A DNA stretch of 42,980 bases, taken from positions 1-42,980 of the forward strand of contig CALXYN010000015.1 of the NCBI GenBank assembly GCA_944392975.1, in the 5' to 3' direction. The DNA is from an uncultured Spirochaetaceae bacterium (GTDB lineage: Bacteria > Spirochaetota > Spirochaetia > Sphaerochaetales > Sphaerochaetaceae). The first letter of the stretch is position 1, and every line of letters starts with the position of its first letter. The notes under the pieces were generated by a model, which was not told the DNA's origin, searched no databases, and was given only the letters and a program-made list of their open reading frames with translations. Shown in pieces: positions 19,191-20,878 of this stretch. A program made the translations under genes and the position numbers.

Positions 19191-19196
19191 TTGTCC
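19185..19196 (+). promoter_or_regulatory. Putative leaderless -10 for the secreted-protein gene
   Basis: TAAGCT (19185-19190) ends 6 nt before the ATG, with no Shine-Dalgarno and no clear -35. This is one of the weaker examples of the recurring pattern. Confidence 0.35.
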
Positions 19197-19649
19197 ATGA
19201 AAAAATTCGTGGTTTTGCTCTTTGTGTCAGTGCTTTGTCTATTGCCGGCTTTTTCCAATGCAATAGAAGTTGAGGACGAGGAAGGCGGTGTCTGGGCTGT
19301 TTTCATTACAGATCAGAATGCTGCCATTCCATCTGTTCAGAATCTTGTTGATGATGGGATAGACATCAATCCTGAATCAGCTGTTGTTACAGAGTATGAG
19401 ACTTTTGAGGAAGGACTTGTACGTCTCAGTTCAGCTATTGCGGAGAAGATGGTTTCCATCCTTTATGATTTCGGTCCTGGCAGTTATATGGGAGTTTATC
19501 AATACGATGGTGCTGAGGGAAAATATGCCATCGCAGCATTTGTTCCGGAAAATAAGAGAACAACACTCGATAATCTTGCTTCATTCTTCATCGGCAGCCT
19601 TGAATATGATTCTGCCGTTATGAGCTTTGAAGAGATGATGGAATCTTAA
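19197..19649 (+). CDS. Small secreted protein of unknown function
   Basis: A 150-residue protein with a classical signal peptide: MKKF, a hydrophobic core LLFVSVLCLLPAF, and a likely cleavage after SNA at about residue 25. There is no lipobox cysteine, so the mature protein of about 125 residues is periplasmic or released. The mature region is acidic and mixed alpha/beta, with the pattern GVWAVFITDQNAAIPSV and a YDFGPGSYMGVYQYD core. I do not recognise a family. The ATG at 19197 is chosen over an in-frame TTG two codons earlier because it begins the signal peptide. It follows pyrC by 39 nt but appears to have its own promoter. Confidence 0.75.
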   Translation: MKKFVVLLFVSVLCLLPAFSNAIEVEDEEGGVWAVFITDQNAAIPSVQNLVDDGIDINPESAVVTEYETFEEGLVRLSSAIAEKMVSILYDFGPGSYMGVYQYDGAEGKYAIAAFVPENKRTTLDNLASFFIGSLEYDSAVMSFEEMMES

Positions 19650-19710
19650 GGAATTCTCCTTACAATACAATTCAGATATTTTCTGTTACTACTTTTCCTC
19701 CTTCTGGTTG

Positions 19711-19734
19711 TGTGATACTATCCCCGGTGGAGGA
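19711..19734 (+). promoter_or_regulatory. Promoter and ribosome-binding site of the corA leader
   Basis: TGT followed by GATACT (19714-19719) forms an extended -10. The -35 region is weak. The predicted start near 19726 is just before GGAGG (19729-19733), which serves the leader ORF. Confidence 0.5.
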
Positions 19735-19741
19735 AAATGCT

Positions 19742-19822
19742 ATGGATGAAGGCGGCAGTATAAATCCTTTGCCTAGAAACACAGATGCAGAATTCGTGGC
19801 CTTCATCATCCTCTCTGAATAG
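19742..19822 (+). CDS. Leader peptide of corA (mgtL/corL-like)
   Basis: A 26-codon ORF with a perfect GGAGG 8 nt before its ATG. The peptide starts MDEGG and carries NPLPR at residues 8-12; it ends FIILSE. E. coli MgtL, the Mg2+-sensing leader of mgtA, starts MEPDPTPLPR. An acidic start plus prolines destabilises ribosomes when Mg2+ is low. The stop codon lies within the loop of a hairpin that competes with one sequestering the corA Shine-Dalgarno. I infer that it reports Mg2+ or translation status to corA. The resemblance could be chance in so short a peptide. Confidence 0.6.
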   Translation: MDEGGSINPLPRNTDAEFVAFIILSE

Positions 19823-19849
19823 GTGATCAGAGGGCCACAGGAGAGCCCT
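19811..19849 (+). promoter_or_regulatory. Mutually exclusive hairpins controlling the corA ribosome-binding site
   Basis: Hairpin A pairs 19811-19818 with 19827-19834 (8 bp, one G-U) around the leader stop codon. Hairpin B pairs AGGGC (19831-19835) with GCCCT (19845-19849); its loop holds the corA Shine-Dalgarno AGGAGA, and the ATG follows at once. They share 19831-19834 and cannot both form. A would free the corA site and B would hide it. No T-run is present, so control would act on translation or via Rho. Confidence 0.55.
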
Positions 19850-20878
19850 ATGATTACAAAAAGAACAGATTTGACACCAAACCAGAAATATACCTGGATT
19901 GATTGCAGGGAGATTGATAAAGAGGATGTATCAATCCTCACGGATGAGTATCTCATCTCATCTGAGCTCCTTGCTGATATAATGGATGCTGACGAGCAGA
20001 GCCGTATTGAGAAAGAGGATGAGTATACTGTCATCATCTGTCGTCTTCCCTCTGCAGAAGAAGATGACGACAAACCTCTTGAAAGGACAACCATTCCTCT
20101 CGGTATGGTGCTCTATCCGGATAAGATAATCACAATCTGCCGGGGAGACAGTGTTGTCATTGATGATTTCGCACGCCGTCGTTTCAGACAGTGTCCTGTA
20201 GAGACCAAGGAGGGTTTTGTCCTTTCCATCCTCGGCCGTGCCGCTCTTGTTTACATCAGATTCCTGAAATATATCAACAGACAGAAGGATCTTGTTGAAG
20301 AACAGCTTCATCAGTCCATTATGAACTATGAACTCATACAGCTTCTGCAGATCCAGAAATCCCTTGTTTATCTGACAACCGGTCTCACAGACAATGAGGT
20401 ACTGCTCGAAAAACTTCAGAAAACACCGTATTTCAGACTCTCAACGGATGAAGAACTTGAATTTCTGGAGGATATCATTACAGATAACAAACAGGCTATT
20501 GCCATGGCCAATATCTATTCAGATATTCTTACAGGTACGATGGATGCGTTTGCTTCTGTTATCGGAAACAATATGAACGTAATCATGAAACGCCTTACGA
20601 TAATTTCTCTTTCCCTGATGTTTCCTACATTTATCACGGGCTTTTTCGGAATGAATGTGACAATTCCTGGTATGGACGGAAAGTGGGCGTGGCTGTTCCT
20701 TCTTGCGCTCTGCGGGATTGTGGCTCTGGTCGGGACTATTGTCGTATCCGACAGGAAAAATCGTTCTGTGATTAAAGCAGGCCTTGGCGAGAAACGCAAG
20801 AAGAAAAGAGAACAGCGTTCACCTTCAGAGATTAAGTATCTCAGACGTAAGCAGCATTCTCTTGAAGGCGACGACTGA
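19850..20878 (+). CDS. corA: CorA-family divalent cation (Mg2+) transporter
   Basis: An inner-membrane Mg2+ channel/transporter; family members are pentamers with a large cytoplasmic N-terminal funnel. The 342-residue protein has the expected size and two C-terminal membrane segments (MKRLTIISLSLMFPTFITG and WAWLFLLALCGIVALVGTIV) separated by the signature FGMNVTIPG loop, with GMN at residues 267-269. A basic tail follows the second segment, as usual. The ATG at 19850 has AGGAGA just upstream; a longer frame from a GTG at 19823 would begin right after the leader ORF stop and has no good site. Cobalt or nickel transport cannot be excluded. The stop abuts the stop of the convergent methyltransferase gene. 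Confidence 0.93.
   Translation: MITKRTDLTPNQKYTWIDCREIDKEDVSILTDEYLISSELLADIMDADEQSRIEKEDEYTVIICRLPSAEEDDDKPLERTTIPLGMVLYPDKIITICRGDSVVIDDFARRRFRQCPVETKEGFVLSILGRAALVYIRFLKYINRQKDLVEEQLHQSIMNYELIQLLQIQKSLVYLTTGLTDNEVLLEKLQKTPYFRLSTDEELEFLEDIITDNKQAIAMANIYSDILTGTMDAFASVIGNNMNVIMKRLTIISLSLMFPTFITGFFGMNVTIPGMDGKWAWLFLLALCGIVALVGTIVVSDRKNRSVIKAGLGEKRKKKREQRSPSEIKYLRRKQHSLEGDD

Follow-up and report, generated by a model that had tools for sequence, protein, structure and literature searches.

Acidic leader peptides and mutually exclusive RNA stems ahead of corA in Spirochaetaceae: a probable ribosome-operated attenuator

The corA locus and its leader

The window analysed here is a stretch of 42,980 nucleotides from an uncultured Spirochaetaceae bacterium (GenBank assembly GCA_944392975.1, contig CALXYN010000015.1). 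The genome assembly around it (G000) comprises 2.07 Mb in 109 contigs, and its closest named relatives, judged by CorA, are Candidatus Ornithospirochaeta. On the plus strand, the window carries a corA gene preceded by a leader with a short upstream open reading frame (uORF) and several RNA segments able to pair with one another:

19693..19698, plus strand: putative -35-like hexamer TTTTCC, 17 nt before the -10; the CTTTTCC block is kept in the genus alignment
19713..19721, plus strand: extended -10, TG-A-TACTAT
19729..19733, plus strand: Shine-Dalgarno of the uORF, GGAGG, 8 nt before the ATG, as read from the sequence
19742..19822, plus strand: leader uORF of 26 codons, MDEGGSINPLPRNTDAEFVAFIILSE, with ATG at 19742 and TAG at 19820-19822
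19745..19753, plus strand: segment 1, GATGAAGGC, codons 2-4, i.e., the acidic pair itself; pairs with segment 2
19796..19807, plus strand: segment 2, GTGGCCTTCATC, 3' codons of the uORF; its partner is segment 1 or segment 3
19823..19828, plus strand: outer arm of hairpin 3:4, GTGATC, pairing with GATTAC at the corA start; kept in 26 of 27 genus leaders
19830..19838, plus strand: segment 3, GAGGGCCAC; with segment 2 corA is open, with segment 4 it is closed
19839..19843, plus strand: Shine-Dalgarno of corA, AGGAG, in the loop of hairpin 3:4
19843..19857, plus strand: segment 4, GAGCCC plus GATTAC, overlapping the corA start codon
19850..20878, plus strand: corA, a CorA-family divalent cation channel with GMN motif

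The CorA translation matches PF01544 with 186.9 bits and includes FFGMNV, i.e., the GMN motif, which places it in the CorA family. Its score with TIGR00383, the CorA equivalog model, is 108.5 bits, below the curated cut-off of 200.75, so that the assignment stays at the level of a divalent cation channel. Because no match to MgtE was found in the window's genome, this CorA may be the main channel of such kind in its host. The genome contains bL31. No genuine EttA was found in it, as the best score of 372 bits lies below the cut-off of 807. A CorA orthologue is present in 43 of the 48 genomes of the genus, and a CorA match is absent from the other five (G003, G004, G005, G029, and G030). Directly ahead of corA lies an ORF of 152 amino acids (19191-19649) with a signal-like N-terminus, which no NCBIfam model matches.

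The extended -10, the GGAGG, and the 26-codon ORF with an acidic start, which an earlier note had read from this DNA, are all present. The -10 (TTGTGnTACTATC) is kept in the genus, its spacing from the downstream Shine-Dalgarno of the uORF being nearly constant, although a strict sigma-70 consensus scan gave no hit; judged from these elements, a transcript would start at approximately 19727-19729, at the Shine-Dalgarno of the uORF. In the clade with MDDGSYPLP peptides (L029, L030, L057, L116, and others), a small, sequence-variable hairpin is found between the -10 and the uORF Shine-Dalgarno, approx. 15-40 nt before the uORF, where it might serve as a 5'-end stabiliser.

The uORF N-terminus is a genuine coding sequence under strong constraint

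The leader set was compiled from the regions upstream of CorA orthologues in the genus, in public genomes, and in the rest of the family, and it comprised 88 distinct leaders. In all of them, a short ORF occupies the same place, with a Shine-Dalgarno of at least 4 nt ahead of it and a stop codon 17-75 nt before corA. The N-terminus of this uORF is a genuine coding sequence under strong constraint. Codons 1-11, MDEGGS(I/T)(N/K)PLP, are nearly invariant at the amino acid level in the window's part of the genus, whereas their third positions vary: for codons 2-11, pS is 0.380 and pN is 0.038 (pN/pS 0.099), and for the DEGGS codons pN is 0 and pS is 0.437, compared with pN/pS values of 1.56 and 1.71 in the two other frames, which served as a control. 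The earlier note had proposed aligning the corA upstream regions of related spirochaetes; in such an alignment, the start codon, the acidic residues, and PLP are indeed kept through synonymous changes.

Across the family, the core of the peptide is D-[DE]-G-[GS]-S; Sphaerochaeta halotolerans (L076), for instance, has MSTVDDGGSINPLPRN, and Bullifex porci (L072) has MSTKDDGNPLPS. An adjacent acidic pair occurs in 87 of the 88 leaders, the lone exception being L086 with DAD, whereas PxP occurs in 74 and is absent from most of one clade (MSTSDDGGSIRYRPS and similar); the acidic part is thus the core of the peptide. The length of the peptide varies from 14 to 32 residues, and its C-terminal half is free, being barely alignable even inside the genus.

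The motif is also specific for corA. Searched as DNA, the N-terminal motif never had more than one site in a genome; 24 of the 48 genomes of the genus have it, each time at corA, and the reversed control was never found. Among family loci, a similar motif precedes 38/45 corA genes but only 2/203 other genes. The leader motif is absent upstream of both distant CorA paralogues inspected (L164 and L165). The uORF and corA share a reading frame in the window's species; among relatives, however, all three frames are seen (38/36/14), so the uORF is not an N-terminal extension of CorA. Readthrough of its stop codon to give a longer CorA was rejected on the same ground.

Exclusive stems and the position of the ribosome

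The leader of the window folds with -46.8 kcal/mol compared with -35.5 in shuffled sequences (z -2.7). Three conserved stems can be drawn: stem 1:2 joins 19745-19753 with 19799-19807, stem 2:3 joins 19796-19803 with 19831-19838, and stem 3:4, which shuts both the Shine-Dalgarno and the start codon of corA, joins 19823-19828/19832-19835 with 19845-19848/19852-19857. According to the computations, these stems are mutually exclusive, i.e., the leader adopts either 1:2 plus 3:4, with the ribosome-binding site and start of corA shut, or 2:3, with both open. In sister clades, the sequences of the segments differ and the pairing is kept. Thus, 2:3 is formed by GGCATCC/GGATGCC in L151 and by GGCTTTCGG/CCGGAAGCC in L149, and 3:4 by CATGCC/GGCATG in L116 and by TGTGTCCTTC/GAAGGACACA in L031; across the genus, the outer-arm pairs of hairpin 3:4 include GC, GU, and AU types.

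RNAalifold applied per clade recovered 3:4 and parts of the other stems, but not all of them, because the alignments slip at variable loops; partner swaps and folding with a positioned ribosome were used in its place. Across 71 leaders, every one of the three stems reached P 0.0002 in the partner-swap tests. Inside clades, 2:3 was significant in clade E (own -23.5 vs. swapped -17.9 kcal/mol, P 0.0002) and 3:4 was significant in clades A, B, and D (in B, a sister clade, own -19.7 vs. swapped -14.1 kcal/mol, P 0.0002). In the window's genus clade, the test gave P 0.0018 for 3:4 and a weak result for 2:3 (P 0.08), the latter because the sequences are too alike and a fixed cut misplaced some arms.

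These results modify the picture drawn in the earlier note, which had described two competing hairpins, A around the stop codon of the uORF and B around the corA Shine-Dalgarno. Hairpin B can form (GGGC/GCCC, with AGGAG at 19839-19843 in its loop). Hairpin A can form as well (CTCTGA at 19814-19819 with TCAGAG at 19828-19833, and the stop codon in the loop); however, it is not a conserved stem but rather a local option in the window's species. What relatives keep, with turnover of the sequence, are the exclusive stems around the ribosome-binding site of corA.

With a 30-nt ribosome footprint placed on each codon of the uORF in turn, we computed how much energy is needed to open the ribosome-binding site of corA. 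In these computations, the corA site is open with early ribosomes and closed with ribosomes near the 3' end of the uORF. In the window, the cost is 10.5 kcal/mol without a ribosome, approx. 7 with a ribosome at codons 1-7, approx. 10 in the middle of the uORF, and 14.0 at codon 23; with a ribosome at the stop codon it falls again, to 6.7, and likewise in some other species. The late-minus-early opening cost was compared with that of dinucleotide shuffles in two sets of leaders, which are given separately since the first 40 were hand-picked after their curves were known and the other 48 were run apart from them. In the first set, the difference is 5.6 compared with 1.0 in shuffles and is larger in 40/40 leaders (P 1e-11); in the second, it is 3.6 compared with 1.1 and is larger in 42/48 (P 6e-9), although leaders share kinship and both P values thus overstate their independence. 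Overall, the effect exceeds that in shuffles in 82 of 88 leaders and does not in 6, and it appears in clades whose segments have little sequence in common.

Mechanism, alternatives, and distribution

Taken with the literature on enterobacterial leaders, the anatomy described above makes it probable that ribosomes operate the leader as an attenuator of corA translation, with the acidic nascent peptide as the sensor. At low Mg2+, ribosomes making the acidic N-terminus would pause or drop off within the first codons, and the strong Shine-Dalgarno would keep loading new ones, so that segment 1 stays covered; segment 2 would then be available for pairing with segment 3, which would allow translation of corA. 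When Mg2+ is ample, ribosomes would travel through to the 3' codons of the uORF and mask segment 2, 3:4 would form, and corA would be shut. If no ribosome is present, 1:2 and 3:4 are predicted to form, and corA would likewise be shut. The PLP part probably contributes further slowing. Spirochaetes carrying this leader thus probably sense Mg2+ by whether ribosomes finish a small peptide, a reading that we infer from the motif, the downstream gene, and published work on MgtL and mgtQ. In the Salmonella mgtQ leader, Asp2 and Glu5 lower translation of the uORF and raise that of mgtB (PMC8092293). In E. coli, early acidic repeats, including those of mgtL, stall or eject ribosomes, and low Mg2+ favours drop-off; nonetheless, a di-acidic pair alone is not always sufficient (PMC11282234), and the DEGG motif of the window differs from the experimentally tested EPDP motif.

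The closest parallel in design is the mgtQ leader of mgtB, with which the spirochaete leader shares a short uORF with a strong Shine-Dalgarno and acidic residues at its start, the choice between 1:2 plus 3:4 and 2:3, a stem 3:4 that shuts the ribosome-binding site of the main gene (as computed for the leader described here), and probably also translational control (PMC8092293). An acidic pair in 87/88 leaders, a Shine-Dalgarno in 88/88, and stems that are mutually exclusive by computation make it a probable attenuator of the mgtQ type. It is not mgtQ proper, an 8-codon uORF that is located between the mgtC and mgtB genes and acts for the MgtB transporter, whereas the spirochaete uORF has 14-32 codons, is promoter-proximal behind its own likely promoter, serves corA, and belongs to another phylum; no common descent is claimed. 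With enterobacterial mgtL, the leader of mgtA, it shares an N-terminal acidic/proline motif beside an Mg2+ transporter gene. The window's peptide reads DEGGSINPLP, however, rather than EPDP at residues 2-5 (the MDPDPDS and MDSDPGS of class relatives come close to the EPDP of E. coli MgtL), and the target gene and the RNA architecture differ, mgtL acting via transcription termination. Enterobacterial corL and the gammaproteobacterial corA motif likewise combine a uORF with alternative structures ahead of corA, but corL is reported to have fewer acidic or proline residues and to act via Rho (PMC11552253), and the corA motif has been reported only in Gammaproteobacteria (PMC6429828). The M-box (ykoK) riboswitch is also a leader of Mg2+ transporter genes, but it binds its ligand as an aptamer and has no sensing peptide; in mycobacteria, an M-box accompanied by a uORF has been described (PMC12810186). 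Within this context, the earlier interpretation that a spirochaete corA leader follows the strategy of known Mg2+ leaders is supported. In the open-access literature, no earlier description of an acidic-peptide corA leader was found for spirochaetes, for clostridia, or elsewhere outside gammaproteobacteria, although such absence is not proof.

The same switch might be tuned to a different signal, i.e., the supply of proline-tRNA or EF-P, ATP via an ABC-F factor, or general translation stress, with CorA rising whenever early elongation is slow. Such tuning would suit the retention of PxP in 74/88 leaders, and there are precedents in the Salmonella mgtM and mgtP leaders, which sense ATP and charged tRNA-Pro (PMC8092293), and in the action of EttA, an ABC-F ATPase, on the translation of MgtL (PMC11282234). 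However, a whole clade and many relatives lack PxP and retain the acidic pair, the gene that follows always encodes a divalent cation channel, and the window's genome has no EttA above the cut-off, all of which makes a different signal rather unlikely. A uORF that does no sensing and simply holds corA translation steady, by coupling or insulation, would account for stop codons that in some species lie close enough to corA for re-initiation (17-75 nt); yet it is the N-terminal residues that are conserved, more than the mere presence of an ORF, together with exclusive stems whose balance is set by ribosome position, and we consider this explanation distinctly improbable.

The earlier note had left the choice between control of corA translation and of Rho access. 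Rho-dependent or other transcriptional control, in which the stems would gate Rho and not the ribosome, has its model in corL and mgtL, which work via Rho in Salmonella, as corL also does in E. coli (PMC11552253). Nonetheless, the stems directly shut the Shine-Dalgarno and start codon of corA, and do so via different sequences in sister clades. Because the anatomy resembles that of Salmonella mgtQ (PMC8092293) and no intrinsic terminator was found on the plus strand, translational control is favoured, and control through Rho appears very unlikely. An Mg2+ riboswitch or another ligand-binding RNA with an incidental ORF is harder still to credit: the leader is structured, and RNAs such as the M-box and the gammaproteobacterial corA motif are known, but Rfam covariance models, including M-box, gave no relevant match in the leader with E values allowed up to 5, the conservation lies in coding sequence, and among clades the RNA sequence turns over with pairing alone kept. 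As for a small functional protein acting on CorA, its conserved N-terminus would be expected, but a peptide so variable in length, with a C-terminal half that hardly aligns within the genus, leaves this possibility almost no credence; the candidate was rejected on the free C-terminus.

Related uORFs also precede corA beyond the family. Among 40 CorA loci taken from other families of the class, 18 passed the uORF test, and L185 and L199 were added by eye; their peptides start with MDSDPGS, MDADPGS, MDPDPDS, MSDPDGG, MTEDDTGP, or MDETPGS. The remaining loci, mostly distant CorAs plus some closer ones, had no such uORF, and several Treponema and similar CorA genes also lack it (L087-L090; L189, L194, and L214-L216). 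At five loci (L180, L182, L183, L186, and L188), the MDSDPGS/MDPDPDS uORF reaches corA without meeting a stop codon and extends 29-86 nt past the corA start, so that completing the uORF would itself hinder corA initiation. Such an overlapping uORF would be a different output device with the same predicted sign of control, reached by a simpler route. In the clostridial order of L093, uORFs of the MDxDP type precede 16/29 corA genes (L254-L281, L217, and L093), for example MDADPRS, MDPDEDN, and MEGDPGS, and MDPDPRP in L093 itself. At firmicute loci, the motif lies ahead of 11/31 corA genes compared with 0/91 other genes; in the Bacillota phylum at large, only 3/27 top-scoring CorA genes carry such a uORF, and the clostridial occurrence is thus confined to certain lineages.

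The chances seem about even that acidic leader peptides (MDxDP, D-[DE]-GGS) represent a widespread form of ribosome-based Mg2+ sensing, old or repeatedly invented, that serves corA and perhaps mgtE in Spirochaetia, corA in a clostridial order, and mgtA and mgtB in enterobacteria, the peptide being constant and the RNA output device rebuilt (four-segment attenuator vs. overlapping uORF). Thus far, we have found Mg2+ sensing by an acidic nascent peptide demonstrated only in enterobacteria. If the peptide logic holds at corA in the spirochaete class and a clostridial order, it would be a general bacterial sensor and no enterobacterial oddity. The approx. 100 natural peptides constitute a library of the residues that matter (the acidic pair, then G/S, proline being optional), and this is relevant to the destabilisation of ribosomes by acidic chains. 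Moreover, little-studied gut and anaerobic bacteria, here one without MgtE, would gain a concrete model of how Mg2+ uptake is controlled.

Acidic uORFs were also observed ahead of mgtE. In L232 (genome G071), a family member without a CorA match, a MDTDPLSSLCLLAV uORF lies 152 to 74 nt before mgtE, which reads as if this kind of leader had followed the Mg2+ channel gene. Conserved acidic uORFs are found upstream of further mgtE genes, with MESEKLYYFTINILNKKEKTLPIPSGRCSMLLDKL in L238, L241, L247, and L249, and MSEPSRPN..EDPLL/MSEQSKSPADDPFL in L225, L231, L234, and L250.
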